Source of the DNA: Bacteroides cellulosilyticus
GTDB lineage: Bacteria; Bacteroidota; Bacteroidia; Bacteroidales; Bacteroidaceae
Direction of reading: 5' to 3'
Length of the DNA stretch: 64,000 nucleotides
Assembly: GCF_020091405.1 (NCBI RefSeq)
Contig: NZ_CP081903.1
Span: 682,001-746,000, forward strand
The first letter of the stretch is position 1, and the number at the start of each line of letters is the position of its first letter. The notes below the pieces were generated by a model. The model ran no database searches. It was not told the DNA's origin and saw only the letters and a list, made by a program, of their open reading frames with translations. The translations under genes were made by a program, and so were the position numbers. Positions 1-24,688 of the stretch are shown one piece after another.

Positions 1-3000
1 AACGCGGGTAGGAAGAATTATCAATACCCGGTGTTAATGCACTGCTTGATGCGGACACTTCAGGGTCATACCCCGTATAATCGGTAAAAGTATGAATGTT
101 ATTCAAGGTACAATACACACGGGCATTACTGATTTTAGCGCGTTGCACTAATTTCTTTGGTAAAGTATATCCCAAGGTGATCGTATTTAAGCGTAAATAA
201 GAGCCATCTTCCAAGTAATAACTACTGCGTTCACTAATGGCAGTCTTGTTATTCCCTGAAATATTCCACAAAGCATTACCATCATATTGGTGTGGATTCA
301 GTGCAGCCAAACGAGCCAAATCAGAACTTTCTTTACCCGTTGAAGGATCAATCAATGTGAAACGGTTCTTCATTTTTTCAAGTGTATTCTGATTAGCCAG
401 ATACGGGCCAATAAAGCGCTGAGTACTCATGCTGAACACATCATTACCTACTACGAAATTCATGAAAATAGTCAAATCAAATCCTTTATAAGTAAAGGTA
501 TTGTTCCAACCTCCAGTGAAATTAGGAGCTGCATTTCCTATCACAGTACGGTCATTAGTACCCCATACCGGATTTCCATCTGCATCTACCTCACCAGCCG
601 TCGGTCTATATTTAGCATCACCCGGCTTTACATTTTCACGATTAGAACCTTTCAAATAAGGAACACCTGCATTCAATGTATAGCCACCATCAGCATTCTG
701 TGTAAAATCATCTGTCGTATAGATACCATCATAAATCAAACCAAAGAATTGTCCCAACGGTTTTCCTTTTTCAATTTTAAAACCCATACGAGATTCATAC
801 TCTGTTATGAAATTATCAGTTTCACCATCACCATAAATATCCAATACCTTTGAACGGTTGAAAGCAATATTGAAGTCCATTGTCCAAGTGAAATCCTTTG
901 TACGAATATTAGTCGTATTCAAAACTAATTCTACACCACGATTACGGATAGAACCAATGTTCTGGAATTGATGGGTATAGCCAGTAGAAGTAGGTATTTG
1001 GTTCTTAATTAACAGATTGGAAGATTCATTGTTATACCAGTCTACTGACAGATTAACACGGCTATTAAGAATTGATATATCCAAACCGACATTGGTGGTA
1101 GTAGTTTTTTCCCACTTCAATTTCGGATTTCCAAGTGTTGTACCAGGCACAAGTGTTATGTAATCACTACCATTATAGCCATAATGACCTGAGCCATAAT
1201 CTGTAGCATACATATTATTATCAACGTTATTATTACCAGAAGTACCATAACCTACACGCAATTTCAAGTTCTGGAAGAAATCAAAATCCTTCATAAAACC
1301 TTCTTCTGAAATTCGCCATGCTGCAGAAGCAGAAGGGAAGTAACCCCATTGTTGGCCACGGGCAAACTTAGAAGAACCGTCGGCACGTAATGTTCCTGTA
1401 AACAAATAACGGTCACTATAATTGTAAGAAAGACGGCCAAAGAGAGAGACAAGGCCAACTCTACTTTTCCCTGATTTCCACGTCTGCGGAGTACCCATAC
1501 TGACATCATTCAAGCCAAAGTTGCCATCTGAGAATTTTCGGTATTCATTATCCAGATTCATAGATTCTTGATACCAGGTTTCCTGACCAAGCAGAACATT
1601 AAAACGATGGGCTTCTTTCACATTAAATGCATAATTCAATGTATTCGTAATCTGCCAAGAAAACTTTTCGCTGTTATTGCGATAACCATATCCATAAGGA
1701 CTTTGATTGGACGAAGCTGTCTTCGTATTACCATTATCCCAATAATCTTTACGCACTTGCTGCCACATGTAACTTCCGGATGTACGGAAAGTCAAATCTT
1801 TCAATATATCTATTTCCAACCCGGCATTCACTGTTGCCATACGAGTATATTTCTCATTGGTTATAGATTGATTATTGATGATTGGATTATTAGCATCATA
1901 ATTATCCCCACCATACATTTCAGAAAAGAGGTCAGCCAAATCAGAACCTAACAATTGTTCATTAGTCCACTTCACGCCACCTGTCACCGGTTGCAAAATT
2001 GTCTGTTTCAATGTACCGCCCAATGAACCTCCACCATCAATTTTTGTCATTTGTAAGCTGGAAGAAAAATCAAAACGTACACCTTTCCATAATTCATGAT
2101 TAATCTTAGCACGGATACTATTCTTCTGATATCCATGTTTATCCATTATACCATCCTCACCCGTGTAGTTATAGCTCAACATATACTTAGTCTTCTCACT
2201 GCCACCACTGATATTCACATTGTGATTCTGTGTAATACCCGTATTACCGAACACCTCATCCTGCCAATCAATGCCGGCACGATTACCATACTCATTAGCA
2301 ATACGACCGTATGCACCGGTATAGAAATCACCAGAATTAATATCTCCACCAAAAATATTCGAGAAGTTATCTTCATTGCCACGAAGTAACTGGAACTCAT
2401 ACTGATACTTTACATAGTCTTCAACTCCCATCAAATCCAGTTTCTTTCCTAATCGGTCAAAACTGACAAAACCATTATAAGAAACTTCGGTCTTACCTGC
2501 CTTACCGGATTTCGTAGTAATCAATATAACACCATTGGAACCACGAGCACCATAAATAGCCGTTGCAGAAGCATCCTTCATTACATCAATAGTTTCGATA
2601 TCATTGATGTCTACATTCTGCAAACCATTTTCCATTTGGAAACCATCAACAATATAAAGTGGTTCTGTTCCTTGTGTGATAGATGTACCACCACGTACCG
2701 TAATATTAATATCAGCCCCCGGAGCACCACTTTGCTGTACGATATTCACACCTGCCGCTTTACCCGCCAATGCTTGTGCTGCAGTAGTCACAGGAGCGAT
2801 AGCCAAATCCTTACTACCAACAGAAACAGAAGAACCAGTCAATTCTTTACGCTTCACCTTCGCATACCCAATAGCAACGACTTCTTCCAACATTACTGAA
2901 GATTCTTTGAGCGTAACTGCAAAATGGGTTTTGTTACCAATAAGAACAGTTTGATCTTCATAACCAATAAACGAAACCACCAATTCCTTAGCCGAAACAG

Positions 3001-3202
3001 GTACAGAGAGTTTGAAATTACCATCCATATCGGTAATAGTACCAATAGATTTGTCACCTTTCACCGTAACAGAAGCTCCGATCACCACGTCAATCGCATC
3101 GCGAACCGTACCGGTAAGCGTCTTGTTCTGGGCAAAAATGCTTAGAGGACAGCTTATTAACAGAAGCATTAATAAGCACATTTTTCTGTGTAAGATTCTC
3201 AT
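1..3202 (-). CDS. SusC-like TonB-dependent outer-membrane receptor (3' end cut by window edge)
   Basis: Outer-membrane transporter that imports oligosaccharides with a SusD partner and TonB energy. I translated it from the ATG at 3202; it stays open to the window edge. The signal peptide ends at about residue 25 (SIFAQ). A carboxypeptidase-regulatory-like domain follows (about 28-105, with GTITDMDGNFKL), then the TonB-box region (LEEVVAIGYAKVKRKELTG) and a plug (VRGGTSITQGTEPLYIVDGF, VMKDASATAIYGARGSNGV), then a long barrel. The last visible residues (YTGYDPEVSASSSALTPG, then YPR) match the typical SusC C-terminus, so only about 10-15 residues are missing. SusD would lie just outside the window. 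The promoter region carries the same 21-bp-spaced repeats as the GH28 gene upstream, so it probably belongs to the same regulon. The ligand is inferred from context only. Confidence 0.93.
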   Translation of the reverse strand, partial: MRILHRKMCLLMLLLISCPLSIFAQNKTLTGTVRDAIDVVIGASVTVKGDKSIGTITDMDGNFKLSVPVSAKELVVSFIGYEDQTVLIGNKTHFAVTLKESSVMLEEVVAIGYAKVKRKELTGSSVSVGSKDLAIAPVTTAAQALAGKAAGVNIVQQSGAPGADINITVRGGTSITQGTEPLYIVDGFQMENGLQNVDINDIETIDVMKDASATAIYGARGSNGVILITTKSGKAGKTEVSYNGFVSFDRLGKKLDLMGVEDYVKYQYEFQLLRGNEDNFSNIFGGDINSGDFYTGAYGRIANEYGNRAGIDWQDEVFGNTGITQNHNVNISGGSEKTKYMLSYNYTGEDGIMDKHGYQKNSIRAKINHELWKGVRFDFSSSLQMTKIDGGGSLGGTLKQTILQPVTGGVKWTNEQLLGSDLADLFSEMYGGDNYDANNPIINNQSITNEKYTRMATVNAGLEIDILKDLTFRTSGSYMWQQVRKDYWDNGNTKTASSNQSPYGYGYRNNSEKFSWQITNTLNYAFNVKEAHRFNVLLGQETWYQESMNLDNEYRKFSDGNFGLNDVSMGTPQTWKSGKSRVGLVSLFGRLSYNYSDRYLFTGTLRADGSSKFARGQQWGYFPSASAAWRISEEGFMKDFDFFQNLKLRVGYGTSGNNNVDNNMYATDYGSGHYGYNGSDYITLVPGTTLGNPKLKWEKTTTTNVGLDISILNSRVNLSVDWYNNESSNLLIKNQIPTSTGYTHQFQNIGSIRNRGVELVLNTTNIRTKDFTWTMDFNIAFNRSKVLDIYGDGETDNFITEYESRMGFKIEKGKPLGQFFGLIYDGIYTTDDFTQNADGGYTLNAGVPYLKGSNRENVKPGDAKYRPTAGEVDADGNPVWGTNDRTVIGNAAPNFTGGWNNTFTYKGFDLTIFMNFVVGNDVFSMSTQRFIGPYLANQNTLEKMKNRFTLIDPSTGKESSDLARLAALNPHQYDGNALWNISGNNKTAISERSSYYLEDGSYLRLNTITLGYTLPKKLVQRAKISNARVYCTLNNIHTFTDYTGYDPEVSASSSALTPGIDNSSYPR

Positions 3203-3284
3203 AGATTATTAATATAATTTGATTAATAAATAAATTTAAGCCTAACCAAATGCACAACCGTTATCGAGCACATTATTCTGGTTA

Positions 3285-3348
3285 CAAATATAGAATTTGA
3301 AACCAACCTACAAGATGTATTTTTTGACCGAAACACTTTCTCTTTTGA
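3285..3348 (-). promoter_or_regulatory. susC promoter with AraC-type direct-repeat operator
   Basis: On the minus strand a Bacteroides -7 box, TATATTTG, lies at 3292-3285, about 80 bp before the susC start. Two TTTTGA hexamers (written on the plus strand) lie at 3322-3327 and 3343-3348, exactly 21 bp apart, with the first 30 bp upstream of the -7 box. The same arrangement occurs before the GH28 gene, rhaB and the esterase-GH105 gene. Two helical turns between direct half-sites is typical of AraC-family activators. That the neighbouring AraC protein binds here is inference. Confidence 0.65.
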
Positions 3349-3450
3349 TTTTCTTAATAAATAACCTAATAGTTCAAACAAAGAATAGGATTTATTGTAG
3401 TATTCTTAATAGGTTAAATATAAAATCAATCCTAAAAATGCCATAAAAAA

Positions 3451-3473
3451 AGGATGCTCACTACGAACATCCT
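3451..3473 (-). terminator. Terminator after the sulfatase gene
   Basis: Read on the minus strand, AGGATG pairs with CATCCT around an 11-nt loop and is followed by a run of seven T (plus-strand A run at 3444-3450). It lies about 30 bp past the sulfatase stop and separates the GH28-sulfatase unit from susC. Confidence 0.75.
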
Positions 3474-3500
3474 TTCCTCATAAACTATCATTACAGCTAC

Positions 3501-4898
3501 TCAAAACTCACCGGGTAATGGCCAATTGGGAGTAGGTACATGCATTTTCTCCATTTCCTTTTCAAATTCAGCTATTACTCCAGGATATTTATCGGCTAAA
3601 TTCATAGACTCAGTCATGTCTTCCTTTATATTATATAATTCTAAAGGAGCATCTTTTTTAATAGTAACAACTTTCCAGTCACCTCTGCGAGCTGCACGTT
3701 GTTTTCCGGGAAACTCCCAGTATAGCAAACGATTATCCGTATCCATCTGCTTACCATAGAATAGAGGTAAGACATTTATCCCATTTAATTTTTGAGGCAA
3801 TTTATCTGTAGCATTAGCCAATGCGGCCAATGTAGGCATTATATCCGGGAAATAAATAATGTTATTCAATTTCTGAACCGGAACTTTACCTGGCTGATTA
3901 ACAATAAAGGGCACACGAATTCCTCCTTCATAAAGTTGTCCTTTCATACCCTTCAGTGCACCTTTACATCCTAACTCGGCCAATGGCGCCTGCTTAGCGG
4001 CTCCATTGTCTGAAGCAAAAATGATCATTGTATTCTCACGCAATCCTAATCTGTCAAGTTCTGCCAACAAGCGTCCAATTGCCCGGTCCATGTGTGTGAT
4101 AAGCGCAGCATACCGTTTAGTATTCATATCCCAAGTTTCATCATCATACCAAACCGTTTCATCTATAATATAAGGTTCATGCGGTGCATCATAGGCCAAA
4201 TACAAAAAGAATGGATTTGTCTTGTTCCTATTTATAAATTTAATCGCATCTTCCGTTGAAAGATCAGTATTATGCTTTATATGTTTGTCTCCTTCATTCT
4301 CTCTTATATTTTCAAGTTTCTCATTATTGAAACGCCAATAAGGATAGTAATATGGATCATTAGAATAAACCGTACTAATAAGCCAGCCGTAAAACTCATC
4401 AAATCCTCGATTCAAAGGGGTAGCCTCAGGATTAAAACCATCCAAATGCCATTTGTTTACCAAACATGTCCGATAGCCAGCACTACTTAATACAGTAGCG
4501 ATTGTTGTATCATTCGGTAACAAATGCATTCTTCGTATAAGCTTTGTACCTTTCATCCCTTCAATACCTCCTGCATTACAGAAATTATCACGAATGGTAG
4601 TATTCCCCGTATTCCGCCCCGTCATCAACGCACAACGAGAAGGAGAACTTATTCCCGATCCTGCATAACACTGAGTAAAAGAAGTGCCAGTTGCTGCCAG
4701 TTTATCAATATTAGGAGTTTCAATATATTTATTCCCATAACAAGCCAAATCACAATACCCCATATCATCCGCCAATATAAAAATAATATTAGTTTTTTTA
4801 TCGTTTACCGCAGTTGACTGCTGAGCTTTAACCACTATTTGAGAAAGAACCAACATATTTACGGCACAAAATCCTCCTAAAAGTTTATTCTTATTCAT
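3501..4898 (-). CDS. Exported S1-family sulfatase, serine type
   Basis: Hydrolyses a sulfate ester, probably in the periplasm or at the cell surface. The protein has 465 residues with a signal peptide to about residue 26 (VVKAQ). Metal-binding aspartates lie in ILADDMGYCD (D44, D45). The sulfatase signature reads S84-S-P-S-R88, so the residue matured to formylglycine is serine rather than cysteine. KWHLDGF and NRGFDEFYGW are further family motifs, and ASDNG near residue 288 is the usual second metal motif. Anaerobic maturases of gut Bacteroides are known to handle such sites; none is visible here. It lies 61 bp behind the GH28 gene and is probably co-transcribed with it. A sulfatase is unexpected in a pectin locus, since plant pectins are not usually sulfated, so the substrate is open. 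Confidence 0.92.
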   Translation of the reverse strand: MNKNKLLGGFCAVNMLVLSQIVVKAQQSTAVNDKKTNIIFILADDMGYCDLACYGNKYIETPNIDKLAATGTSFTQCYAGSGISSPSRCALMTGRNTGNTTIRDNFCNAGGIEGMKGTKLIRRMHLLPNDTTIATVLSSAGYRTCLVNKWHLDGFNPEATPLNRGFDEFYGWLISTVYSNDPYYYPYWRFNNEKLENIRENEGDKHIKHNTDLSTEDAIKFINRNKTNPFFLYLAYDAPHEPYIIDETVWYDDETWDMNTKRYAALITHMDRAIGRLLAELDRLGLRENTMIIFASDNGAAKQAPLAELGCKGALKGMKGQLYEGGIRVPFIVNQPGKVPVQKLNNIIYFPDIMPTLAALANATDKLPQKLNGINVLPLFYGKQMDTDNRLLYWEFPGKQRAARRGDWKVVTIKKDAPLELYNIKEDMTESMNLADKYPGVIAEFEKEMEKMHVPTPNWPLPGEF

Positions 4899-4959
4899 AT
4901 TCTACATATTTTTATTCATAGTTTCATTCTGTCTCACGAACATTATACTCCAACGCACA

Positions 4960-6381
4960 TTATGGCATATCAACATTCTCATTATACTCCAACATCAATT
5001 CATCATGAGCTTTAATCTGAACGTTATCTAATTTCCAGCCCTTAGCCCAAATGATTTTTCCAGCTTTATCACCTTCAATACAGACATTACGAAGTATAAA
5101 GTTTTCGATTTTGCTATTTGCTATTCCAACTACATTCATACAAGTTCTTGCATTAGAAGCTGTTACATTATCAAGAGTAACATTCCGAAAGACAGGAGTG
5201 CCTTGTTCCAAACTTACCGATTCTAGCATTTTACTCCAGTACACTGGAATGTTCTCCATATCATATCCCTTTGGAAGTTTAGAAATACTATATGCAGGAT
5301 TCCAATTCAAATCAACAACAAATGGTCGTTCAACCCCTATCATCTCGATGTCATACAAATAAATGTCTTCAATCACTCCACCACGCTGACAAGTACTCTT
5401 GAAACGCAATCCACATTTTGTACCTACACCTTTCATTCGGTATGCCACTATATTACGAATTCCCCCCGAGGTTTCACTACCACAAGTAAACATCCCCCCT
5501 CCTGAACCAGCTACACAATCACGAATCACTACATATTGGCAAGGGCGATTCACCCTAAGCCCGTCACTATCTCGTCCGGCTTTCAAACAGAAATTATCAT
5601 CATTGCAATTTATATTAGCATTCTGAACAAGAATATATTCAGATGAATCAATATCAATGCCATCTGTACTTGGACCATGACCTTCAATATTATTACTAAT
5701 TATAATACCATCAATTGTTATATGCTTACTATATAAAACATGCAAACTCCAAAAACCAGGCTGATACAATACAATATCACGTACAGTCACATTCTCACAT
5801 TCGGCAATAAGAATTCCGCGAGGGCGTTCACAATCATAATCCACAATCCAACGTAATCCCTTTGCCTCATAATCCTCCCGCATATTCCAGTACTTATCCC
5901 AAAACACCTTGCCACGCCCATTTATCACTCCATCACCAGAAATAGCAGCATTTTTCTTACCAATGATATTTATCAATGCAGAAGGCCACTCCATTTCTAT
6001 TCCTGCAACGCGCGTATCTATCTTCTTATAATCACCTATATCTTGAGAGCCTATAAGAGTGACTCCTTTTGAAATATGAAGATTTACATTGTTCCCTACA
6101 AATAAAGAACCGGTAAGATAAATGCCTGGATGAAACACTACAATTCCGCCTCCGGCTTGTTCTGCAGCATCAATTGCTTTTTGAATAGCCACAGTATTCA
6201 TACTTAGAGCATCTCCCTTTGCGCCATAGTCTGTGACATTATATACAGCCTGCTGTACCGGATAAGACATAGCACCTACTTTTTTCATCCAAAAGAAATC
6301 TGGTATTTCTCTGCCATGAGCGTTCGTGGATAAACCGGTCATCCATACAGACAACGTAAACAGAATAAAGTAATTCTTCAT
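4960..6381 (-). CDS. GH28 polygalacturonase-family glycoside hydrolase
   Basis: Right-handed beta-helix hydrolase of galacturonic-acid-containing polymers, exported (signal peptide ends near NAHG, about residue 23). I start it at the ATG at 6381 (MKNYFILF), because it begins the signal peptide and the upstream extension holds the promoter; this gives 473 residues. The GH28 fold is shown by the N-terminal NVTDYGAKGDALSMNT block, then STDGIDID, NDDNFCLKAG, GSETSGG and GLRFKS. The usual GHG catalytic-site motif reads GSG here (AGSGGGMFTCGSE), while the other GH28 of this window keeps GHG. It could therefore be an exo-acting or rhamnogalacturonan-specific variant, or less active. The operator and -7 box upstream resemble those of susC. 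Confidence 0.9.
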   Translation of the reverse strand: MKNYFILFTLSVWMTGLSTNAHGREIPDFFWMKKVGAMSYPVQQAVYNVTDYGAKGDALSMNTVAIQKAIDAAEQAGGGIVVFHPGIYLTGSLFVGNNVNLHISKGVTLIGSQDIGDYKKIDTRVAGIEMEWPSALINIIGKKNAAISGDGVINGRGKVFWDKYWNMREDYEAKGLRWIVDYDCERPRGILIAECENVTVRDIVLYQPGFWSLHVLYSKHITIDGIIISNNIEGHGPSTDGIDIDSSEYILVQNANINCNDDNFCLKAGRDSDGLRVNRPCQYVVIRDCVAGSGGGMFTCGSETSGGIRNIVAYRMKGVGTKCGLRFKSTCQRGGVIEDIYLYDIEMIGVERPFVVDLNWNPAYSISKLPKGYDMENIPVYWSKMLESVSLEQGTPVFRNVTLDNVTASNARTCMNVVGIANSKIENFILRNVCIEGDKAGKIIWAKGWKLDNVQIKAHDELMLEYNENVDMP

Positions 6382-6455
6382 TATATAAATTAGATTAACA
6401 AGTAAATTATGCGTTATTGAAAGGTCAATTAGTAAACAATAATTCTTATAAAGGA

Positions 6456-6518
6456 CAAAAGTAAACAATTATACAGCTACAATTATATTCCTTTTGACCC
6501 TAATACTTTTCCTTTTGA
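6456..6518 (-). promoter_or_regulatory. GH28 promoter with AraC-type direct-repeat operator
   Basis: The minus-strand -7 box TACTTTTG is at 6463-6456. TTTTGA hexamers (plus strand) lie at 6492-6497 and 6513-6518, exactly 21 bp apart, and the first is 29 bp upstream of the -7 box. The whole block closely matches the susC upstream block, including the inner TTTTGACC and ACTTT. The AraC gene lies directly upstream. Confidence 0.68.
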
Positions 6519-6616: not shown

Positions 6617-7537
6617 TTATTCCTCGTCCACAATTCCGGTTTCACGCCCAAAAGATCTATATTCCAAGGGTGTAAATCCAGTACGTTTTTTGAAAAGAGA
6701 GAAAAAATGCTCAGTGGATTTATAATCGAGCATAAAAGATATTTCCTTGACAGACTGAGATGTACCTACTAACAACTGCTTTGCTTTACGAAGTTTCAAT
6801 TCCTGAAAATATTTGGCAGGCGCATATCCCGTATAATCCTTAAAGACCTTGCGGAACCAGGAATAGCTAATATTCAGTTTCATAGCCAATTCTTCCGGAT
6901 CAATATCTTTGAACACATTTTCATTCATAATAATTTTTGCCTGTTCAATCTTTTGATCAACATCACCAACCTCAAAAATCTTATTCTTAGAAATGGAAAG
7001 GATCATTCCTATCATATGCAACACAATACCAGAAAGATATTGTTGAGAAGAAATCTTATCAGCTTCAGCAATTTCCAATGCACGCGAGAAAAGAGTAACT
7101 AATTCTTCATTCAACCCCACCTCTAATACTTGATTATCTTTAGAAAGGAAACCACCTTTCAACATATCATCTATGACCGGTCCTTCAAAACCAATGTAGT
7201 ATTCATTCCATCCTGTCTGCTGGTATGGGTGGTATGTGTGCCACTGTCCGGGAAACAGCACCATGAGCCTTCCCTTACAAACTTGCTTTTCAGGAGTGGT
7301 CTCAGAGGTAAATAATCCTCGACCTTTAGTAATGTAAACCAGTTGATACTCACGTAAAACACGTCCCTTCTGAGCATTGAAGAAGTAACCAGAAGGATGG
7401 TCCTTCAAGGGATAGGGAGAATTCGGCTGGATAGACTGAAAGCCTACAGTATTTACCCACAGACCGAATTTCTGGTCCATGTCATTTACAATCAAGTACT
7501 TAAATTCAACCCCTAAATCATTATAGTTCTTAGTCAT
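6617..7537 (-). CDS. rhaR: AraC-family transcriptional activator, probable RhaR
   Basis: Cytoplasmic sugar-responsive activator of 306 residues. The N-terminal half (about 50-150) looks like the cupin-type ligand-binding region of AraC proteins (LREYQLVYITKGRG, VLFPGQWHTYHPY). The C-terminal 100 residues hold two helix-turn-helix units (LAMKLNISYSWFRKVFKDYT and VKEISFMLDYKSTEHFFSLF) followed by the family motif FKKRTGFTPLEYR. It follows the rhamnose genes in the position that RhaR holds next to the rha operon in B. thetaiotaomicron, which is the basis of the name. It has its own -7 box at 7572-7579 and sits after a terminator. Four 21-bp-spaced direct repeats in this window are candidate targets. 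The effector (rhamnose or a derivative) is inferred. Confidence 0.82.
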   Translation of the reverse strand: MTKNYNDLGVEFKYLIVNDMDQKFGLWVNTVGFQSIQPNSPYPLKDHPSGYFFNAQKGRVLREYQLVYITKGRGLFTSETTPEKQVCKGRLMVLFPGQWHTYHPYQQTGWNEYYIGFEGPVIDDMLKGGFLSKDNQVLEVGLNEELVTLFSRALEIAEADKISSQQYLSGIVLHMIGMILSISKNKIFEVGDVDQKIEQAKIIMNENVFKDIDPEELAMKLNISYSWFRKVFKDYTGYAPAKYFQELKLRKAKQLLVGTSQSVKEISFMLDYKSTEHFFSLFKKRTGFTPLEYRSFGRETGIVDEE

Positions 7538-7579: not shown

Positions 7580-7603
7580 GAAATTATTTGCGAATAAAAA
7601 AAT

Positions 7604-7643
7604 GTCCGCTCCGGGTTAATTCTAAAAATATACCGGAGCGGAC
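7604..7643 (-). terminator. Terminator of the rha operon
   Basis: GTCCGCTCCGG (7604-7614) and CCGGAGCGGAC (7633-7643) form a perfect 11-bp stem with an 18-nt loop. On the minus strand it is followed by a run of seven T. It lies 28 bp past the GH105 stop codon and ends the rhaB-to-GH105 transcript. Confidence 0.85.
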
Positions 7644-7670
7644 TAATAAATACGAATAAAGAGAAAGAGT

Positions 7671-8969
7671 CTATTTCTTTACGACAATCTTATCATATTG
7701 TTGTTCAGCCTTGATTTCTGTATACTTAGGTGCATCTATCATCTCGATAAGTGCACGGAGTACAGGACCTTCACCCATAGGATCGTTCTCTTGGGTAGGA
7801 CGGTTGTAATAGTATGCCACAGAAGGCATAATACCGGTTCCTACACAAATAGAAGTTACATCACCATCATCAGAGATTTTTCTCATCATACCCTTCAAAC
7901 CTTGTTCCGCCACATAGATAAAGTCCGGATGCAACCAACCTTCCTTCACACCACGGGCAATACCGAACACGAACATGGCGGTACCGGTGATTTCTTCATA
8001 AGAATCTTCCTTATCCAGCAATTGATGCCAAAGTCCGTTCTTACCTTGATAGCGAGCTACACCACTGGCTTGCTGGCGGAAATTTTCAATAACCGCTTCA
8101 CGCATCGGATGATCTTTCGGCATCATACTGAGCAAATCAGCTTGTGCCATAAACACCCAGCCGTTGGCACGGCTCCAATGAGCTACTCCATGTTCCTTAT
8201 TGTCTGTATGATAACAGTGATAATAAATCTGCTTTTCAGGACACCAGAGATAGCGATTATAATTCAATACCTGATTAGCGGCATCATTGAAATACTTCTC
8301 ATCACCAGTCAACTTACCCATACGTGCCAAAAAAGAAATTGCCATGAACGCATCGTCCGCCCAGATAGTATTAACGTGTGGCCAGATGCGGGCAATGGTA
8401 CCATCAACCAAACGAGGTTCACCGTAATTCAGATGTTCGGCAGTCTCATTAATATAACCCAAAAATGAATCATTAGGATACTTCAACTGCAACTCTATCA
8501 AACTGGCTCCCATCGGTCCATTATCGTCCAGACGTTTGCCACGGAAGATCATGTGCCAACTCAATTTGCGGACAGCATTCCAACCATCCCGCTTAAAAGC
8601 TTCATCATATTGTTTACGGAAGAAATCAAGGTTACCTTCGTTGAATACGAAGTTCATATTCTTCAAAACATATTTCTCATACTTCTTATCACCGAGCTTA
8701 TCACCCAGTTCCATCAAAGCCATGTTTGTTACCCCATTGGTATAGTGCCAGTTATTATACTTGCAAGCAACCTTTACGTCCATATCAAGAGGTAACTTCT
8801 TGACGGACTTATATGTCTCACCAGTCTTCGTATTCTTGAACTCGTATGTAGTGCTGGCAAGAATGCGGTCTGCAATCTTTACGGCAGCTTCTCTTGCCGT
8901 CATCTTGGTTTGGGCGGTAAGGGTTGCCACTGCCAACAGCAGGGCGAGGGAAAAGAATGTTCGTTTCAT
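7671..8969 (-). CDS. GH105 unsaturated rhamnogalacturonyl hydrolase
   Basis: Removes the unsaturated galacturonyl residue that a rhamnogalacturonan lyase leaves on the non-reducing end. The exported protein has 432 residues with a signal peptide to about residue 19 (ATLTAQ). The (alpha/alpha)6-barrel family is indicated by IWADDAFMAISFLARMG (the aspartate pair is the catalytic region), WSRANGWVFMAQADLL, YQGKNGLWHQLLD and EITGTAMFVFGIARG. It lies 70 bp behind the aldolase gene with a hairpin in the gap, and is the last gene before the operon terminator. In B. thetaiotaomicron this slot holds the lactaldehyde reductase rhaO, which I do not find anywhere in the window. A second GH105 domain exists in the esterase fusion at 20493-23024. 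Confidence 0.9.
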   Translation of the reverse strand: MKRTFFSLALLLAVATLTAQTKMTAREAAVKIADRILASTTYEFKNTKTGETYKSVKKLPLDMDVKVACKYNNWHYTNGVTNMALMELGDKLGDKKYEKYVLKNMNFVFNEGNLDFFRKQYDEAFKRDGWNAVRKLSWHMIFRGKRLDDNGPMGASLIELQLKYPNDSFLGYINETAEHLNYGEPRLVDGTIARIWPHVNTIWADDAFMAISFLARMGKLTGDEKYFNDAANQVLNYNRYLWCPEKQIYYHCYHTDNKEHGVAHWSRANGWVFMAQADLLSMMPKDHPMREAVIENFRQQASGVARYQGKNGLWHQLLDKEDSYEEITGTAMFVFGIARGVKEGWLHPDFIYVAEQGLKGMMRKISDDGDVTSICVGTGIMPSVAYYYNRPTQENDPMGEGPVLRALIEMIDAPKYTEIKAEQQYDKIVVKK

Positions 8970-9039: not shown

Positions 9040-9849
9040 TTATTTAGGAAGATTAAATGCGCGAGTCATTTCCTGCATTTGCTCCTGACTCATGCCATCA
9101 GGTTCAAAGCCCATGTTTTTGGCAGCAATATAAATCAAGGCAGATTTATTCAATACATCTACCTGATCGAAAGCTGACATAACATCCACATCTACAGCAA
9201 AAACACCATGTTTTTCCCACATAGCCACGTCATAATCTTCAAGTTGTTCAATAGTTGCTTCCGCCAGTTTCACAGAGCTTGGCAGTTCGTAAGGAATGAT
9301 GCCTAAACCACGCGGACAGAAAGCCTTTGTTTCAGGAATCATACTCCAAAGTAAATTGGTAGCCACATCTTTCTCCAGGAATTTCTTGCAATGCGTCATA
9401 GCAATCAGTTCGATAGGATGGGTATGCAATGAAGCTTTATAGGGAGATCCTTTCTCAATCAAGCGATTGTGCACACTAAGATGGGCAGGAAGTTCGGAAG
9501 TAGGCATCACCGGATGATCGGCAATGATAACATAGCTGGCACAGCCATCCAGAATACGAATCACAGAACCGTGCTCCATTGGCCAACGGGCCAGATCGCG
9601 CATGCGCTTATTGGTGCCCTTGCAATAGAAATAGCAATCTTTCAGATACGGAAGAGTAGCGCCGATTTGTTTCACTTCGCTGATGGCAGGCAATGCTTTT
9701 ATTTCATCGTCTACAAATTCAGTAATATTCAGGGTGATATTACCGCCATTACGTTCGGCCCACCCTTTTTGCCAGAGATATCCGGCAACTTCTGCCACTT
9801 GATTGACTGCATAAGTCAATGTCGGACGGTTTTCGAGAATTGATTTCAT
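9040..9849 (-). CDS. rhaD: Rhamnulose-1-phosphate aldolase
   Basis: Class II zinc aldolase that splits L-rhamnulose-1-phosphate into dihydroxyacetone phosphate and L-lactaldehyde in the cytoplasm. At 269 residues it is close to the family length. Zinc ligands are visible in ASLHTHPIELIAMTH (H142, H144) and in WEKHGVFAVD near residue 215. TSELPAHLSVH holds the catalytic glutamate (E119). The early NGGNITLNI block is typical of the phosphate-binding region. Gene order kinase, isomerase, permease, aldolase supports the call. Called rhaA in the Bacteroides literature. Confidence 0.95.
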   Translation of the reverse strand: MKSILENRPTLTYAVNQVAEVAGYLWQKGWAERNGGNITLNITEFVDDEIKALPAISEVKQIGATLPYLKDCYFYCKGTNKRMRDLARWPMEHGSVIRILDGCASYVIIADHPVMPTSELPAHLSVHNRLIEKGSPYKASLHTHPIELIAMTHCKKFLEKDVATNLLWSMIPETKAFCPRGLGIIPYELPSSVKLAEATIEQLEDYDVAMWEKHGVFAVDVDVMSAFDQVDVLNKSALIYIAAKNMGFEPDGMSQEQMQEMTRAFNLPK

Positions 9850-9949: not shown

Positions 9950-10981
9950 TTACACTTGCGCCATTGCCACCACAATAATAGAAGATATCAGAACTACCAA
10001 ACCCAAAATAAGGACTGCAATCGTAGTATTGCTGACACCTTTCCATTCCTTCAACAGAATTCCCCAGACATTGCTGAACGTTACGTTCAATGACATCAGG
10101 ATGCTCCAGGAGAAAGCAAGCAGTACAGGACTGTCTGTCAGGAAGCTCTTACCCATTTCAAGGCCGAAGAACTGAGAATACCACAATACGCCTGCAAGCG
10201 CACAGAACAACAGATTATTCGTCAGTACCGAACCTTTCACAGAAAGATATTCCTTACCCGTCTTATTCTTGATATTCTGCCAGATACAATAAGCGGCATT
10301 CGTACAGAAACCTCCAAGAGTTACCAGGAAGATTACAGGCAGTCCGGCATAGAGCGCTTCTACTCCACCAACCAAAGCTGCCTCTTTTATCGGTGTTCCC
10401 GCATCCAGACCGAGAGCGAAACAAGCGCTCATCACACCTGCCAACAGAGCCACAAGCAGCCCTTTTGTCAGAGCAAAATCCTTAACGGCAGCGCGTTTTT
10501 CCTCTTCCGTCATATTCTTGGAACGGAGACTGCCGGCATATCCGATAATAGCAATACCTGCCAACGTGATACAGACACCGATGAGCAACATCAGCCCTTC
10601 ACCATGAAGCAAATCTTTTCCGGCAAACAACGCGGGGAAGAGTGTTCCGAAGCCGGCACACGTGCCAAGGGCGATACTCTGTCCGAGTGCTACACCCAAA
10701 TAGCGCATACTCAATCCGAATGTCAGTCCGCCCACGCCCCACAGAACGCCGTAAACCATAGCTGGCAAAGCGCCTCCTGCGCCCCAGAGTTCCAGTAAGG
10801 AGCTTCCCGCCGGAATGGCAAGCAGTGCGCCCAACAACGGAAAGACGAGCCATGCAAAGATTCCTTGCACCAGCCAGAAGCTTTCCCACGACCATCCGTC
10901 CACTTTTTTTATCGGCACATACGAGCTGCTCTGCCCGAAACTGCCAATGGCAATAATCAAAAGTCCTATCAGTGTATTCAT
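9950..10981 (-). CDS. rhaT: L-rhamnose permease, RhaT family
   Basis: Inner-membrane L-rhamnose/H+ symporter. At 343 residues it is practically the length of E. coli RhaT (344). About ten hydrophobic segments run through the protein, beginning with LIGLLIIAIGSFGQSSSYVP. WSWESFWLVQGIFAWLVFP and GVLWGVGGLTFGLSMRYLG are typical of the family, and LLKEWKGVSNTT marks the loop before the last segment. It lies in the rha operon, but the 246-bp gap before it carries a six-copy 23-bp repeat array and two possible -7 boxes, so it may also be transcribed separately. Called rhaP in Bacteroides work. Confidence 0.95.
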   Translation of the reverse strand: MNTLIGLLIIAIGSFGQSSSYVPIKKVDGWSWESFWLVQGIFAWLVFPLLGALLAIPAGSSLLELWGAGGALPAMVYGVLWGVGGLTFGLSMRYLGVALGQSIALGTCAGFGTLFPALFAGKDLLHGEGLMLLIGVCITLAGIAIIGYAGSLRSKNMTEEEKRAAVKDFALTKGLLVALLAGVMSACFALGLDAGTPIKEAALVGGVEALYAGLPVIFLVTLGGFCTNAAYCIWQNIKNKTGKEYLSVKGSVLTNNLLFCALAGVLWYSQFFGLEMGKSFLTDSPVLLAFSWSILMSLNVTFSNVWGILLKEWKGVSNTTIAVLILGLVVLISSIIVVAMAQV

Positions 10982-11055: not shown

Positions 11056-11186
11056 GACAAGCGCATGTCAGTGGTGACGACAAGCGCATGTCATGGGTAG
11101 TGAGAAGCGCATGTCAGGGGGTGGTGAGAAGCGCATGTCAGGGATGGTGACAAGCGCATGTCATGAGTGGTGACATACGCATGTCA
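11056..11186. repeat. Six-copy 23-bp tandem array with palindromic core (rhaI-rhaT gap)
   Basis: The core GACAAGCGCATGTCA recurs with starts at 11056, 11079, 11102, 11126, 11149 and 11172, so the period is 23 bp with one step of 24. Copies three and four read GAGAAGCGC and copy six GACATACGC; ATGTCA is constant. The core is a near-palindrome (GACA-n-GCGC-n-TGTC). The flanks between cores are variations of GTGGTGA. The array fills most of the gap between the isomerase and permease genes. Confidence 0.92.
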
Positions 11187-11227: not shown

Positions 11228-12478
11228 TCAGCGTTTCGACGTAACGTCTGCTTCGTATTTCTGTATCTCAGTAATGAATTCCTCGCCTACAGGTACACCG
11301 TTTCTCAGACAGAACATATCCCAAACAGCATTCCAAGGCAGAGATTTTCCTTCTTCGAGCAGAGCAAGGCGTTCAAACAGCTGATCGTTCGCCTCGTATT
11401 TACGCAATGTATCCAGCGGTTCCAGCAGAGCTTGCAACACACATTTCTGTGTAGCACGGCTACCTACTACATACGCACCGATACGATTGATAGAAGCATC
11501 GAAATAGTCCAAACCGATATGCACGCGATCCAAAGCATTACAACGTACGATTTCTTTGCAGAGGTCCATCGTCTCATCATTCATTATCGTTACATGGTCA
11601 GAATCCCAACGTACCGGACGGCTCACGTGCAACATGATTTCCGGAATAAACAGTAACAATGAAGACAACTTGTCGGCAACGCTTTCTGTCGGATGGAAGT
11701 GACCTGTATCCAGCGTAACAATCTTATTACGGCTCACACCATAACCGATATAGAAATCATTGGAACCTACCGTATAACTTTCCAGACCGATACCGAACAC
11801 TTTAGACTCCACACAGTCCTTCATATTCTTGTATTCCACCTCGAAGATACGATCCAAAGAATCCTTCAGTAACTCGCGATATAACATACGGTTTACAGTA
11901 ATATCCTTACTTCCATCATGCACCCACAGGTTCATGATACAAGGATCGCCCTGGCGTTTACCCATTTCCTCGGCAATAGCACGGCAACGTTTTGTGTGCT
12001 CCACCCAGAAATCACGGATTCCTTTATCAGGATTAGCAAGTGAAAGATTGCCACTCTTCGGATGAGAGAAAGAGGTAGAGTTGAAGTCCAGCTTCATATT
12101 GTTTTCGGCCGCCCATTGTATCCAGCTTTCAAAATGAGCCGGCTCCACCTGGTCGCGGTCAACGAACTTACCGCCGAAGTCACCATAGATTTCATGCAGA
12201 TTCAAACGATGAGTTCCGGGGATATAGCTGGCTGCCTTCAAGACGTCTTGTCTCAATTCTTCCATATTGCGAGCTTTGCCGGGATAGTTTCCGGTAGCCT
12301 GGATACCTCCTGTCAGCGCACCCTGCGCTTCAAATCCGGCTACATCATCTGCCTGCCAACAGTGCAGGGAAAGGGAAATCTTTTGCAAAGCATCCATTGC
12401 TTTTTCTACATCTACGCCAATAGCCGCATAACGTTCTTTTGCCAATTCATAGGCTCTCTGGATTAATTCTTCTTTCAT
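11228..12478 (-). CDS. rhaA: L-rhamnose isomerase
   Basis: Converts L-rhamnose to L-rhamnulose, a metal-dependent TIM-barrel enzyme of the cytoplasm. It has 416 residues, against 419 in E. coli RhaA. Recognisable blocks are LHCWQADDVAGFE near the start, GGIQATGNYPGKA, LNLHEIYGDFGGKFVDRD, LDFNSTSFSHPKS, NLWVHDGSKD and LDTGHFHPTESVADKLSSLL, which hold the metal and substrate ligands of the family. It follows the kinase gene by about 65 bp in one operon. Called rhaI in Bacteroides. Confidence 0.97.
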   Translation of the reverse strand: MKEELIQRAYELAKERYAAIGVDVEKAMDALQKISLSLHCWQADDVAGFEAQGALTGGIQATGNYPGKARNMEELRQDVLKAASYIPGTHRLNLHEIYGDFGGKFVDRDQVEPAHFESWIQWAAENNMKLDFNSTSFSHPKSGNLSLANPDKGIRDFWVEHTKRCRAIAEEMGKRQGDPCIMNLWVHDGSKDITVNRMLYRELLKDSLDRIFEVEYKNMKDCVESKVFGIGLESYTVGSNDFYIGYGVSRNKIVTLDTGHFHPTESVADKLSSLLLFIPEIMLHVSRPVRWDSDHVTIMNDETMDLCKEIVRCNALDRVHIGLDYFDASINRIGAYVVGSRATQKCVLQALLEPLDTLRKYEANDQLFERLALLEEGKSLPWNAVWDMFCLRNGVPVGEEFITEIQKYEADVTSKR

Positions 12479-12544: not shown

Positions 12545-14002
12545 TCAGGCTAACTGCAGGAAGTGCAGATAAGCAGCATTCCATACTTCCACATTTTCCG
12601 GGGTGAAGGTTTTCAACGGAATGGAACGGTTGATGAGCTGACGCATGGAAACAACGTCACTCGCCGCACCCGCTGTAAGGGCTTGTATCATGACATTACC
12701 GATTGCTGTCGCTTCTGACGGACCGGCCACTACTGGTATACCTACTGCATTGGCTGTCCACTGATTTAATAAATCATTACGACTGCCACCTCCGATAACA
12801 TGCAGGGCCTCTACCGGACGGGGAGAAAGATTGCGCAGATTCTCCAGCACCTGACGATAGCGCAGTGCCAGACTTTCGAAGATACACCGCACCACCTGTC
12901 CGCGAGTCTCCGGTATCGGCTGATGATGGTCAGCACAATAGGTACGGATTGCCTGTTCCATATTCATCGGATTGGCAAACAGAGCGTCATCCGGATTTAT
13001 CAGGCTACGGAACGGTTCACAGGCTTCCGCTTCGGCGATCAGTTCGGGATAAGAGATCTCTTCCCAATCACAGCGACAGCGTTCCAGTAACCACATACCA
13101 CAAATATTCTTGAGCAAACGAATGGTTCCGGCAACACCGCCCTCATTCGTAAAATTTAAAGCTTCGGTTTCTTCATTAATAACCGGTGCATCCGTCTCTA
13201 CACCCATCAATGACCATGTGCCGCTACTCAGATAAGCAAAGTTACGATCCAGTGCCGGCACAGCCGCCACAGCCGAAGCCGTATCATGCCCGGCAACAGC
13301 AATCACCGGAATTGCTCCCAGCCCAGTGATCGTTTGTATTTCTTTAGTCAATACACCTACCTTTTCGCCCGGATAAACAAAACGGCCGAAATGCTCTTCC
13401 GTTAATCCGATTTCTTTTAACAATGCCGATTCCAAACGACGTGTTTCGGCATTCACCAGTTGCGCTGTGGTGGCAATGGTATATTCTGTCACCATCTCCC
13501 CCGTCAATAAGTAACTGAGTGCATCCGGCATGAAAAGTATCTTATCAACTGCTTCCAGTGCGCTATCTTTATTACGACGTAAAGTATCTAATTGAAAAAG
13601 TGAATTGAAATTCATGACCTGGATGCCTGTCCATCCATAAACTTGCTTACGGGGAACACGGTTGAAGAATGCCTCAGGAGCACCCTTAGTATGCGGATCA
13701 CGATAAGAATAGGGCTGGCGAAGCAATCCGCCGTCTTTACCTACGCATACAAAATCCACTCCCCAAGTATCAATTCCGATAGAAGTTATCTGTACATCAT
13801 CCATACGGGCAGCCAGTTTCAAACCTTCCAGAATGTGACGATACAATTCGTAAATATCCCAGTAGTAATGTCCGCCGACTTCGATCAGATGGTTAGGAAA
13901 GCGGTTTACATCCTGCAATTCCAATCCCTGGGGAGTGAATGTTCCCAATATGGTACGGCCGCTGGTGGCTCCCAAATCAACCGCAAAAAAGCAATGTTTC
14001 AT
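12545..14002 (-). CDS. rhaB: Rhamnulokinase
   Basis: FGGY-family kinase that phosphorylates L-rhamnulose to rhamnulose-1-phosphate. I start it at the ATG at 14002 (MKHCFFAVDLGATSGRT), because the actin-like ATP-binding motif DLGATSGR must be at the N-terminus; this gives 485 residues. Further motifs are IGIDTWGVDFV, AVAGHDTASAVAAVP, YLSSGTWSLMG and HVIGGGSRNDLLNQWTA. It is the first gene of the rha operon. Its -7 box overlaps the T run of a terminator that closes the upstream PUL operon, and a 21-bp-spaced direct repeat lies 30 bp further upstream. Called rhaK in Bacteroides. Confidence 0.96.
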   Translation of the reverse strand: MKHCFFAVDLGATSGRTILGTFTPQGLELQDVNRFPNHLIEVGGHYYWDIYELYRHILEGLKLAARMDDVQITSIGIDTWGVDFVCVGKDGGLLRQPYSYRDPHTKGAPEAFFNRVPRKQVYGWTGIQVMNFNSLFQLDTLRRNKDSALEAVDKILFMPDALSYLLTGEMVTEYTIATTAQLVNAETRRLESALLKEIGLTEEHFGRFVYPGEKVGVLTKEIQTITGLGAIPVIAVAGHDTASAVAAVPALDRNFAYLSSGTWSLMGVETDAPVINEETEALNFTNEGGVAGTIRLLKNICGMWLLERCRCDWEEISYPELIAEAEACEPFRSLINPDDALFANPMNMEQAIRTYCADHHQPIPETRGQVVRCIFESLALRYRQVLENLRNLSPRPVEALHVIGGGSRNDLLNQWTANAVGIPVVAGPSEATAIGNVMIQALTAGAASDVVSMRQLINRSIPLKTFTPENVEVWNAAYLHFLQLA

Positions 14003-14026
14003 GATATTAAATATAATTTGACGATA

Positions 14027-14090
14027 CAAAAATAGGGGAAACCTCCCCTATACTTTGTATTAGTTTTGATTGAAAAGGTGCTGTTTCTGA
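14027..14090 (-). promoter_or_regulatory. rhaB promoter, embedded terminator and AraC-type operator
   Basis: Read on the minus strand, a hairpin ATAGGGG / CCCCTAT (14033-14052) runs into TTTTTG. It looks like the intrinsic terminator of the upstream GH28 gene. The same bases form the -7 box TATTTTTG (14034-14027). Upstream lie hexamers TTTTGA (14064-14069) and TTCTGA (14085-14090), 21 bp apart, with the first 30 bp from the -7 box, as at susC, GH28 and the esterase-GH105 gene. The second half-site has one mismatch. Confidence 0.6.
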
Positions 14091-14121: not shown

Positions 14122-15645
14122 TTACTCCTCCACTCCTTCACAATAACGGGTCACTATCTTTTCTCCTTCCGTATTACGAATATTCACATTCTTCATACTG
14201 ATATTCTTACTATATATAAATTCAGCTCCCAATTTAGAAGTAATATCTATATCTTCCAACACAATACCATCAATCGGCATTTCAGGGATACCATTGAAGA
14301 ATAAGGCACGGCGGGCTCCGGCACAAACCAGGTTCTTCACATGAATATTACGGAAACAAGGCGTAGTTTCATCCACCGGCAGCGGTTCTACTTTAGCAGG
14401 TACCTTCTCACCACTTTCCAACACTTCAACAGCCGATTTGCCACCATAATAAAGATTGAATGTAATCGGCTCCGTCGGGATATCCATCATGGCAATATTA
14501 CGTATCCAGATATTCTCAACAACTCCTCCGCGTCCGCGCTTGCTCTTAAAACGCAAACCAACATCCGTACCCAGAAACTGGCAATTACTGACAGAGACAT
14601 TGCGTACACCACCACTCATTTCACTACCAACCACAAAACCACCGTGGCCTTTGAATACTGTACAACCATCTACCACCACATTCTCACAAACACGTCCCCG
14701 GCGGCGGCCGTCTTCGTCTTTACCACTCTTCAGACAAATACCATCATCGCCCACATCAAATGTAGAGTTCACAATCAGTGCATTCTTGCAAGATTCCAGA
14801 TCCAGACCATCACCATTCTGTGCATAACTCGGATTACGTACCTGCACTTCTTCTATCAGCACATTCTCACACATCAACGGATGCAGGTTCCATGCCGGTG
14901 AATTCTGGAAAATCACACCCTGCAACCATACATTCTTACACTCTATCAGGCTCACCATCACCGGACGAAGGAAATGACGCACACTCTGCCACTCTTCCTC
15001 GGTTTTCAGATTCTGAGGTACATTCATATTACTGATAGTATCCCCTTTCAGCGTCTGTGGATAAGGGAACCAATAGGTGGGACGTTTATAAACCCCACCC
15101 CGGGCGATAGTCTGTTTCCATACACCTTCTGTCACTTTCTCCCGTTTCAGAGGACGCCAATAATGTCCGTTACCATCAATGGCACCTTCTCCCGTTATCG
15201 CTACATTTTCCAGATTGCGTCCGGAAACAGGCGATTGGCAACGACGGGTATCCAATCCTTCAAATACAGTCTCTACCAATGGATAGAGGTCCACATCAGG
15301 TGAAAAGAGGATAACAGCACCTTTTTCCAAGTGCAGGTCAATATTACTTTTCAGGACAATAGGACCTGTAAACCAAACACCGGCAGGAACAATCAAATGT
15401 CCGCCCCCCTTTTCTGCCAAAGCATCAATAGCCTTGGCAAAAGCCGCCGTACAAAGTTCTTCGCCATTACCCACTGCACCGAAGTCAGCAAGGTTCACCT
15501 TGCGATCGGGGAATTTCGGTGCTTCTACCCTTGGCATATCAAAAGGCAGGTCTTTATATACCGCTTCATACTTATACGTTGAAGATTGGCAAGCACTGAG
15601 CAACCACAGACACACGGCTGCAATCACATACAATTGTTTCGTCAT
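14122..15645 (-). CDS. GH28 lipoprotein, probable rhamnogalacturonan or polygalacturonan hydrolase
   Basis: Beta-helix glycoside hydrolase of 507 residues, lipid-anchored. I start it at 15645 (MTKQLYVI), because the lipobox LLSAC follows at about residue 18 and an earlier start would run into the PL11 gene. The GH28 features are NLADFGAVGNGEELCT, NGDGLDLES, VGDDGICLKSG (catalytic aspartates), KGHGGFVVGSE (GHG intact) and GLRFKSKRGRGG. The residues after the first motif, KGGGHLIVPAGVWFTGPI, are common in Bacteroidetes GH28. It starts 37 bp behind the PL11 stop, in the same operon, and likely works on lyase products or on the galacturonan parts of pectin. Confidence 0.93.
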   Translation of the reverse strand: MTKQLYVIAAVCLWLLSACQSSTYKYEAVYKDLPFDMPRVEAPKFPDRKVNLADFGAVGNGEELCTAAFAKAIDALAEKGGGHLIVPAGVWFTGPIVLKSNIDLHLEKGAVILFSPDVDLYPLVETVFEGLDTRRCQSPVSGRNLENVAITGEGAIDGNGHYWRPLKREKVTEGVWKQTIARGGVYKRPTYWFPYPQTLKGDTISNMNVPQNLKTEEEWQSVRHFLRPVMVSLIECKNVWLQGVIFQNSPAWNLHPLMCENVLIEEVQVRNPSYAQNGDGLDLESCKNALIVNSTFDVGDDGICLKSGKDEDGRRRGRVCENVVVDGCTVFKGHGGFVVGSEMSGGVRNVSVSNCQFLGTDVGLRFKSKRGRGGVVENIWIRNIAMMDIPTEPITFNLYYGGKSAVEVLESGEKVPAKVEPLPVDETTPCFRNIHVKNLVCAGARRALFFNGIPEMPIDGIVLEDIDITSKLGAEFIYSKNISMKNVNIRNTEGEKIVTRYCEGVEE

Positions 15646-15682
15646 TCTTAGTTCTTTTTTATTTATAATCAGATATTTATTT

Positions 15683-17536: not shown

Positions 17537-17634
17537 ACACTAATGTACCGTTTGTGTAACACAAGCGTTACACTTGTACCACACAAGTGTTTGATTTGCG
17601 TAACACTTGCATTACATTTATGCCACACAAGTGT
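17537..17634. repeat. Five-copy 22-bp array with ACAC...GT cores, upstream of PL11
   Basis: Decamers start at 17537 (ACACTAATGT), 17559 (ACACAAGCGT), 17581 (ACACAAGTGT), 17603 (ACACTTGCAT) and 17625 (ACACAAGTGT), exactly 22 bp apart. Spacers of 12 bp are less conserved but tend to end in GTA or CC. The same core and exact period occur upstream of the GH20 gene at 52480. It lies in the 143-bp gap between the GH106 stop and the PL11 start. Confidence 0.9.
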
Positions 17635-17655
17635 TGTTCAAGGGCATTATAAATA

Positions 17656-23088: not shown

Positions 23089-23152
23089 CAAAAATAGGGG
23101 TTTCCACCGAAACCCCTTCTTTATATTTTGATAGTTTTCTTATTGCTTTTGT
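23089..23152 (-). promoter_or_regulatory. Esterase-GH105 promoter, embedded terminator and AraC-type operator
   Basis: On the minus strand, AGGGGTTTC and GAAACCCCT (23096-23117) form a perfect 9-bp stem with a 4-nt loop, followed by ATTTTTG. This fits a terminator for the toxin-antitoxin operon. The tail also makes the -7 box TATTTTTG (23096-23089). Upstream hexamers TTTTGA (23126-23131) and TTTTGT (23147-23152) are 21 bp apart, with the first 30 bp from the -7 box. The layout equals that at rhaB. Confidence 0.62.
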
Positions 23153-24258: not shown

Positions 24259-24600
24259 CCGTGCTTTTAAAAATTTACCAGACTTTTTGAATTACGAATA
24301 ATAAAATGATCTCCAAATCATAAAACATACCTCTTCACCGCTGAAGAAATATGCAACAAAGATACACAAAATATCAAAAGATATAGATTTAAGATACGAC
24401 AAATTTTATTTTCTATTTTCCATATCCGTTACAATCAATTTCCCCCCCTCTGAAATATACAAAGTATACCGGGAGATGTATAGCTGGAAAGACGACTATA
24501 TTTCTCTGAAAAAGAAGAATCACAAGAGCTAAGTAACAGGACCGCCACTTTTATCTCTTTTTCCTACGACTGCTAAGGAGAAACGCAGTATCTATTTATT

Positions 24601-24688
24601 CTTTCCACCACGGAGATTCTTTCTTTCCATCACGGTGGAAAGAAAGAATCCCCGTGGTGGAAAGAAACTTTCTCCATGATGGAAAGAA
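24601..24688. repeat. 22-bp periodic array upstream of the sensor-regulator
   Basis: GGAAAG recurs at 24637, 24659 and 24681, and its complement CTTTCC at 24601 and 24623, all in exact 22-bp steps within each orientation. Units include CTTTCCACCACGG, CTTTCCATCACGG, CCGTGGTGGAAAG and CCATGATGGAAAG. The two orientations together can fold into a strong hairpin. Weaker GAAAG copies continue to about 24728. The period equals that of the arrays at 17537 and 52480, but the core is different. Confidence 0.8.

Follow-up and report, generated by a model that had tools for sequence, protein, structure and literature searches.

Polysaccharide loci of Bacteroides are mostly held to be opened by dedicated sensors, namely hybrid two-component systems (HTCS), SusR-like regulators and extracytoplasmic function (ECF) sigma factors. 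For rhamnose, RhaR of B. thetaiotaomicron is described as a positive regulator of the rha cluster (PMC3870299, PMC3878776, PMC11669328), and the motifs of Bacteroides RhaR proteins are reported as direct repeats of 21 bp (PMC3870299, PMC3878776). Here we analyse a 64,000-nucleotide stretch of Bacteroides cellulosilyticus (RefSeq assembly GCF_020091405.1, contig NZ_CP081903.1, positions 682,001 to 746,000), hereafter the window, in which an AraC-family gene (6617-7537) stands beside the rha genes. From the sequence alone, it had been proposed that this gene controls a susC operon and an operon headed by a GH28 pectin hydrolase gene (GH28a). Our comparison of genomes, which covers a site before rhaB, co-occurrence and linkage, strongly supports this predicted control, and the full chain from import to catabolism appears to belong to a single one-component sugar regulator of the cytoplasm.

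The protein resembles RhaR (BT3768) in family, in its position beside the rha genes and in its predicted 21-bp direct repeats, the motif being compared by its published description. In contrast, the RhaR regulon as printed for B. thetaiotaomicron is a single operon of transporter and cytoplasmic enzymes (PMC3878776), whereas the locus analysed here adds susC/D, two GH28 genes, PL11, GH106, GH105-type genes and a sulfatase. Two other cytoplasmic-sugar regulators of B. thetaiotaomicron, ManR and AraR, likewise have a SusC/D operon in their predicted regulons (PMC3878776), but they belong to the GntR and NrtR families and respond to other sugars. Similar enzymes (GH28, GH105, GH106, PL11 and SusC/D) are described under HTCS_Rgu-1/-2 of B. 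thetaiotaomicron and in the HTCS-bearing polysaccharide utilisation locus PUL 50 of B. xylanisolvens (PMC3878776, PMC4769552); those rhamnogalacturonan loci use hybrid two-component sensors, unlike the 306-residue one-component AraC protein found here. RhaR, its 21-bp repeats and sugar regulators that reach SusC/D are thus already known, and the present case is a specific extension of a known regulator, not a new type of system. What would be new is the wider, lineage-specific regulon, together with a conserved promoter, leader and signal peptide behind which SusC differs between species. Among the paper titles and opening lines of abstracts surveyed, none concerns a RhaR-controlled susC. Since B. 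cellulosilyticus DSM 14838 is among the 11 genomes of the published regulon work (PMC3878776), part of the regulon may already be in RegPrecise. Related expression data, as reported, include rha genes of B. uniformis raised on rhamnose-containing gum arabic (PMC5609589), and L-fucose and L-rhamnose cultures that cluster in RNA sequencing of B. cellulosilyticus WH2 (PMC3747994).

The element in question was defined on the coding (minus) strand as TCAAAA-N15-TCAAAA-N28/29-TAnnTTTG, in which TAnnTTTG is the -7 consensus of the Bacteroides main sigma factor (PMC7366714). The hexamers of the original prediction, read as TTTTGA on the forward strand, are where it placed them, at 3322-3327 and 3343-3348 for susC and at 6492-6497 and 6513-6518 for GH28a. 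The two 27-bp elements (TCAAAAGAGAAAGTGTTTCGGTCAAAA for susC and TCAAAAGGAAAAGTATTAGGGTCAAAA for GH28a, coding strand) agree at 22 of 27 positions, which bears out their claimed near-identity. Both -7 boxes are also present (3285-3292 and 6456-6463), separated from the inner hexamer by 29 and 28 bases, values that had been counted differently as 30 and 29. The two operators first noted are, however, only half of the set, as sites before rhaB and GH105b had been missed. The four sites are as follows.

3285..3292, minus strand: -7 box of susC, TATATTTG
3316..3348, minus strand: predicted RhaR-type operator of susC, with two TCAAAA-N5-A half-sites at a 21-bp interval; 5' end lying 146 bp upstream of the start codon
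6456..6463, minus strand: -7 box of GH28a, TACTTTTG
6486..6518, minus strand: predicted RhaR-type operator of GH28a; 5' end lying 137 bp upstream of the start codon
14027..14034, minus strand: -7 box of rhaB, TATTTTTG; overlaps a terminator-like hairpin
14058..14090, minus strand: predicted RhaR-type operator of rhaB (TCAGAA...TCAAAA); 5' end lying 61 bp upstream of the start codon as listed
23089..23096, minus strand: -7 box of GH105b, TATTTTTG
23120..23152, minus strand: predicted RhaR-type operator of GH105b (ACAAAA...TCAAAA); 5' end lying 128 bp upstream of the start codon

When the genome, a single contig of 6.94 Mb, was scanned at both spacings (28 and 29), the composite occurred at up to one mismatch in four places, all in this locus. 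The genome-wide motif search that had been suggested as a check therefore returned nothing outside the locus at this threshold. The susC and GH28a composites are perfect, and those of rhaB (14027-14090) and GH105b (23089-23152), which played no part in forming the search pattern, carry one mismatch each. The bare hexamer pair was rejected as evidence, given 12 occurrences in the genome versus six for a reversed control; the composite, unlike the bare pair, exceeds chance. Outside the locus, 16 further composites were found at exactly two mismatches, against two for the reversed pattern; these could include real sites, or be weak or unrelated promoters. The reversed pattern is an imperfect control, because a real -7 box is also lost on reversal, and the upstream regions of other genes provide a better one. 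A longer site model without the -7 box, scanned at up to three mismatches, had susC (0), GH28a (2) and rhaB (2) as its best three matches; it misses GH105b. Its 14 other matches, all at three mismatches, compare with six for the control and are not put forward as further targets; a single repeat accounts for seven of the 14. This repeat is one identical 33-bp match at seven places (G000:C1:1014212, 1759342, 2869052, 2870385, 2870905, 5754672 and 5756005), including two pairs 1333 bp apart, an insertion-sequence-like arrangement.

Conservation was evaluated in 80 loci, the best of 163, that contain relatives of the AraC gene at 62-100% identity and total 1.48 Mb. These loci hold 37, 64 and 92 sites at up to zero, one and two mismatches, respectively, against 0, 0 and 1 in the reversed sequence, and the 64 sites with at most one mismatch are spread over 52 of the 80 loci. 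For each gene found by tblastn we then took the 300-bp upstream region, dropping matches below 40% identity, matches that begin late in the protein and regions with less than 200 bp available. At up to two mismatches, the site lies upstream of rhaB in 48 of 54 loci, and upstream of the susC located 3' of araC in 15 of 17. Its presence at random upstream regions had been named as an outcome that would speak against the proposal; of 288 control regions in the 80 loci, only one has it (rhaA 0/56, rhaT 1/53, rhaD 0/55, GH105a 0/29, araC 0/79, GH28b 0/16). In some loci it also precedes GH106 (3/9) and PL11 (1/3).

The sites themselves are strictly organised. Among 62 distinct sites with at most one mismatch, an A at +11 and an A at +32 are invariant, although both positions, 21 bp apart, fall outside the search pattern. 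Also favoured are TTTC at +15 to +18 (50-56 of 62 at each position) and, preceding each TCAAAA, a purine (58 and 61 of 62), from which a half-site [AG]TCAAAA-N3-R-N-A can be drawn. At a gap of 15 bp the 80 loci contain 39 exact TCAAAA pairs, versus five or fewer for every other gap from 4 to 31, and of the -7 boxes found 10-59 bp after a pair, 37 of 38 are at 28 or 29 bp. AraC-family activators contact RNA polymerase from sites adjoining the -33 region, and such fixed phasing fits an AraC-type dimer that would make this contact from just upstream of it. The DNA code is thus sharp: two half-sites, a set spacing and a set distance to the -7 box.

The protein encoded at 6617-7537 has an AraC-like ligand-binding domain (PF02311) and a C-terminal AraC helix-turn-helix domain (PF12833), both above cut-off. 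It lacks the make-up of an HTCS, as it consists only of these AraC_binding and HTH domains, with no chain of sensor, kinase and receiver. In a protein search, such names as the best 120 of 1337 hits carry, which are few, read AraC family or helix-turn-helix regulator, and the ten sequences of solved structures that matched did so in the DNA-binding part only. This AraC gene and the one in B. cellulosilyticus DSM 14838 share 100% identity. Orthology is indicated by 83% identity together with the same rhaBATD-araC order in B. faecis and B. xylanisolvens (L049, L054), BT3768 not being among the loci returned. The protein is very probably a RhaR-type rhamnose regulator that would bind the repeats as its predicted operators.

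Which regulator the sites belong to can be asked across genomes. Of 149 Bacteroides genomes taken from a larger group, 47 have the perfect composite and 77 the AraC gene (called at E up to 1e-80), and none has the reversed control pattern. The site is present in 43 of the 77 genomes with the AraC gene versus four of the 72 without it (Fisher p 8e-12, to be taken as a guide only because the genomes are related to one another). Linkage points in the same direction. Among 30 loci with GH105b orthologs, the best of 54 matches in 49 genomes, 24 have the site at up to two mismatches: 23 of 23 where araC is within 44 kb on one contig, none of four where it is more than 300 kb away on the same contig, and one of three where it is on a different contig (1/7 for the latter two together). 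Regulon growth is therefore measurable across species, since the GH105b site is there when the gene is beside rhaR and mostly absent elsewhere. In the B. cellulosilyticus genome the nearest other AraC-family protein is 37% identical, and only over residues 160-295, the DNA-binding half. The better evidence for a rhamnose regulator comes from the rhaB and GH105b sites, the first of which links the element to rhamnose. What the analysis shows is the geometry of the sites, how rare they are in the genome, their conservation and their co-occurrence with the regulator.

Several observations count against this assignment. A perfect composite is lacking in 34 of the 77 genomes with the AraC gene, and four genomes have a perfect site but no full AraC match. 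One of these, G438 (99% complete, single contig; L166 G438:C1:1466202-1466570, L097), has its site before rhaB, with pieces of rhaR about 6 kb on, and the other three (G408, G404 and G323) are drafts that are 85, 73 and 80% complete. At up to two mismatches the site is missing upstream of rhaB in six of 54 loci (L030, L040, L047, L064, L087 and L092) and upstream of susC in two of 17, namely L040 and L057; a perfect site lies further out in L040, and in L057 the hexamer pair is, by eye, present with two extra bases. The upstream region of araC itself has the site in none of 79 loci. Likewise, a rhaR knockout of B. thetaiotaomicron is reported to have still grown on rhamnose (PMC11669328), such that control is maybe not all-or-none. 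Drift under the search threshold is a likely explanation for genomes and regions that bear AraC without the site. An order-wide scan of 295 genomes was of little use, with perfect matches in 12 genomes and four matches for the reversed control; among these 12, an AraC relative (E up to 1e-60) was found in five and one of at least 60% identity in two, which also runs against the assignment.

The same data bear on the alternatives. A different regulator with similar sites could be, for instance, an HTCS, whose predicted sites share the architecture of direct repeats about 21 bp apart (PMC3878776), or the 927-residue protein encoded at 24897-27680, which lies beside GH105b and GH43 genes, and which has propeller, Y_Y_Y and HTH_AraC domains with no kinase or receiver match. 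The latter is too rare to be a general binder: close full-length relatives (at least 81%) occur in five of the 149 Bacteroides genomes including this one, versus 47 with a perfect site, and three of the five are far from araC or on another contig. Moreover, the B. xylanisolvens/B. faecis group has the rhaB site with only 21-28% propeller relatives in the sequence examined, and the site follows the presence and linkage of the AraC gene. We consider another regulator very improbable. We give still less weight to the idea that the likeness of the susC and GH28a promoters reflects descent rather than function, through copying upon insertion of GH28a and the sulfatase next to rhaR. Copying is suggested by L014, L015 and L017, where susC directly follows araC with no GH28a or sulfatase match in the sequence examined, and by a GH28a leader that by eye is faintly like that of susC; it leaves unexplained, however, the rhaB and GH105b sites, as well as half-sites and spacing that are conserved across the 62 distinct sites despite variable intervening bases. 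Copying may well have taken place, and is compatible with function.

The alternative that deserves most attention, although we consider it unlikely, accepts that the AraC protein binds but holds that it represses, or that rhamnose alone is insufficient and a second signal is needed, for example from a Crp-like regulator of the BT4338 type or an HTCS. Such dual control, in which an HTCS acts alongside a sugar regulator, is described for arabinan use in B. thetaiotaomicron (PMC5061871, PMC3878776). A location just upstream of the -33 region, together with what by eye are poor -33 sequences, suits an activator instead, and RhaR is reported to increase rha transcription in B. thetaiotaomicron (PMC11669328). 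We favour activation by the RhaR-type protein, with rhamnose or a derivative as the presumed inducer, both by analogy with RhaR of that organism.

In the model that we infer for binding, activation, inducer, substrate and operon boundaries, two monomers would bind the two direct half-sites [AG]TCAAAA-N3-R-N-A, which are 21 bp, or two helical turns, apart. The inner half-site would lie just upstream of the -33 region, and RNA polymerase would be recruited to the TAnnTTTG box 28-29 bp on. One regulon would comprise four promoters, serving rhaB-A-T-D-GH105a, GH105b-GH106-PL11-GH28b, GH28a-sulfatase and susC-susD, with operon borders deduced from spacing and strand. Cytoplasmic rhamnose, or a product of it, would turn on the import and cutting of rhamnose-rich pectin along with use of the sugar. 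The proposed tie between transport, pectin hydrolysis and the rhamnose regulator gains from comparative evidence, as the same element precedes rhaB here and in most relatives (48 of 54 loci). The enzyme set, apart from the sulfatase, which it leaves unexplained, indicates that the substrate is probably rhamnogalacturonan I. Within the sequence examined, rhaB alone bears the site (up to one mismatch) in the B. xylanisolvens/B. faecis group, which agrees with the single-operon regulon printed for B. thetaiotaomicron. The genes concerned, with the susC leader, are the following.

2..3202, minus strand: susC, TonB-dependent transporter; runs on left of the window, then susD (L093:17951-19954)
3203..3284, minus strand: susC leader (GATAACGG...GTTAGGCTT.AATTTATTTATTAATC), its sequence kept at most susC genes adjoining rhaR
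3501..4898, minus strand: sulfatase (PF00884), presumably in the GH28a operon
4960..6381, minus strand: GH28a, GH28 pectin hydrolase family; start taken as the ATG at 6381
6617..7537, minus strand: AraC-family regulator, RhaR-type, 306 residues (AraC_binding and HTH_18)
7671..8969, minus strand: GH105a, GH88/GH105-type (Pfam Glyco_hydro_88)
9040..9849, minus strand: rhaD, rhamnulose-1-phosphate aldolase
9950..10981, minus strand: rhaT, L-rhamnose/proton symporter
11228..12478, minus strand: rhaA, L-rhamnose isomerase
12545..14029, minus strand: rhaB, rhamnulokinase, first gene of the rhamnose operon
14122..15747, minus strand: GH28b, second GH28 gene; start uncertain, listed frame overlaps PL11
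15683..17512, minus strand: PL11 rhamnogalacturonan lyase
17656..20484, minus strand: GH106 alpha-L-rhamnosidase
20493..23024, minus strand: GH105b, GH88/GH105 and SASA esterase fusion, presumed first gene of the GH105b-GH106-PL11-GH28b operon

The susC gene behind rhaR was compared in 16 of the 17 loci where the two adjoin (L026 was excluded for its short reading frame). Over 120 pairs, AraC and SusC identities are uncorrelated (r 0.00), and promoter identity tracks AraC (r 0.63) more than SusC (r 0.36). Pairs whose AraC proteins are 97-99% alike can yet have identities over the first 500 SusC residues as low as 38% (L020/L021) and 62% (L014/L015), whereas other such pairs hold SusC at 80-93% (L014/L017, L018/L021). 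In the two divergent pairs the signal peptide is 81% identical, and residues 401-500 drop to 17 and 34%. Most susC genes adjoining rhaR share the leader at the sequence level; as a structured RNA it was rejected, since consensus folding found no structure and no credible Rfam match lies there. The 13 other susC-like genes of this genome, in 20 sampled stretches, match neither the leader nor the operator pattern, where these patterns are of incomplete sensitivity, detecting 9/17 and 13/17, respectively, of the susC genes adjoining araC. Three perfect sites, at intervals of 9-11 kb, occur in each of two genomes (G339 and G349), and the one G349 site examined precedes a susC-like gene.

It is tempting to speculate, although we would put it at somewhat less than an even chance, that the stretch 3' of rhaR is a fixed expression socket, in which operator, -7 box, leader of about 85 nucleotides and SusC signal peptide are kept while the transporter is swapped and maybe multiplied. 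Slow-changing N-termini and fast-changing barrels could give part of the pattern, so that SusC exchange is likely only. If such a socket exists, rhamnose freed from many glycans would drive whichever importer occupies the slot. The operator code, for its part, could serve as a rhamnose-controlled promoter in commensal Bacteroides.

Further features were noted around these genes. Strong hairpins with a T-run lie between the sulfatase and susC (3441-3483) and, by eye, between GH105a and araC (about 7600-7645), suggesting separate transcription of susC and araC. Terminator-like hairpins on the minus strand at 14032-14051 and 23096-23117 have as their T-run the -7 box of rhaB and GH105b, respectively. 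The rhaB hairpin keeps an 8-bp stem in 11 of 12 close loci (L013-L023, not L025), where changes at its base, for example A-T to G-C, match each other; the GH105b hairpin failed the stem test at L016. Small open reading frames upstream of GH105b had neither a Pfam nor a PADLOC match. A long, near-perfect inverted repeat occupies 24596-24669, with an Rfam microRNA match that is below gathering score and surely spurious. Beyond susD, L093 11044-16298 encodes a TonB receptor, DUF4374 and PepSY_TM proteins, perhaps, at a guess, an iron-uptake set. Finally, tandem repeats are present upstream of rhaT (11056-11186, 23 bp x 5.7) and of PL11 (17551-17635, 44 bp x 1.9).

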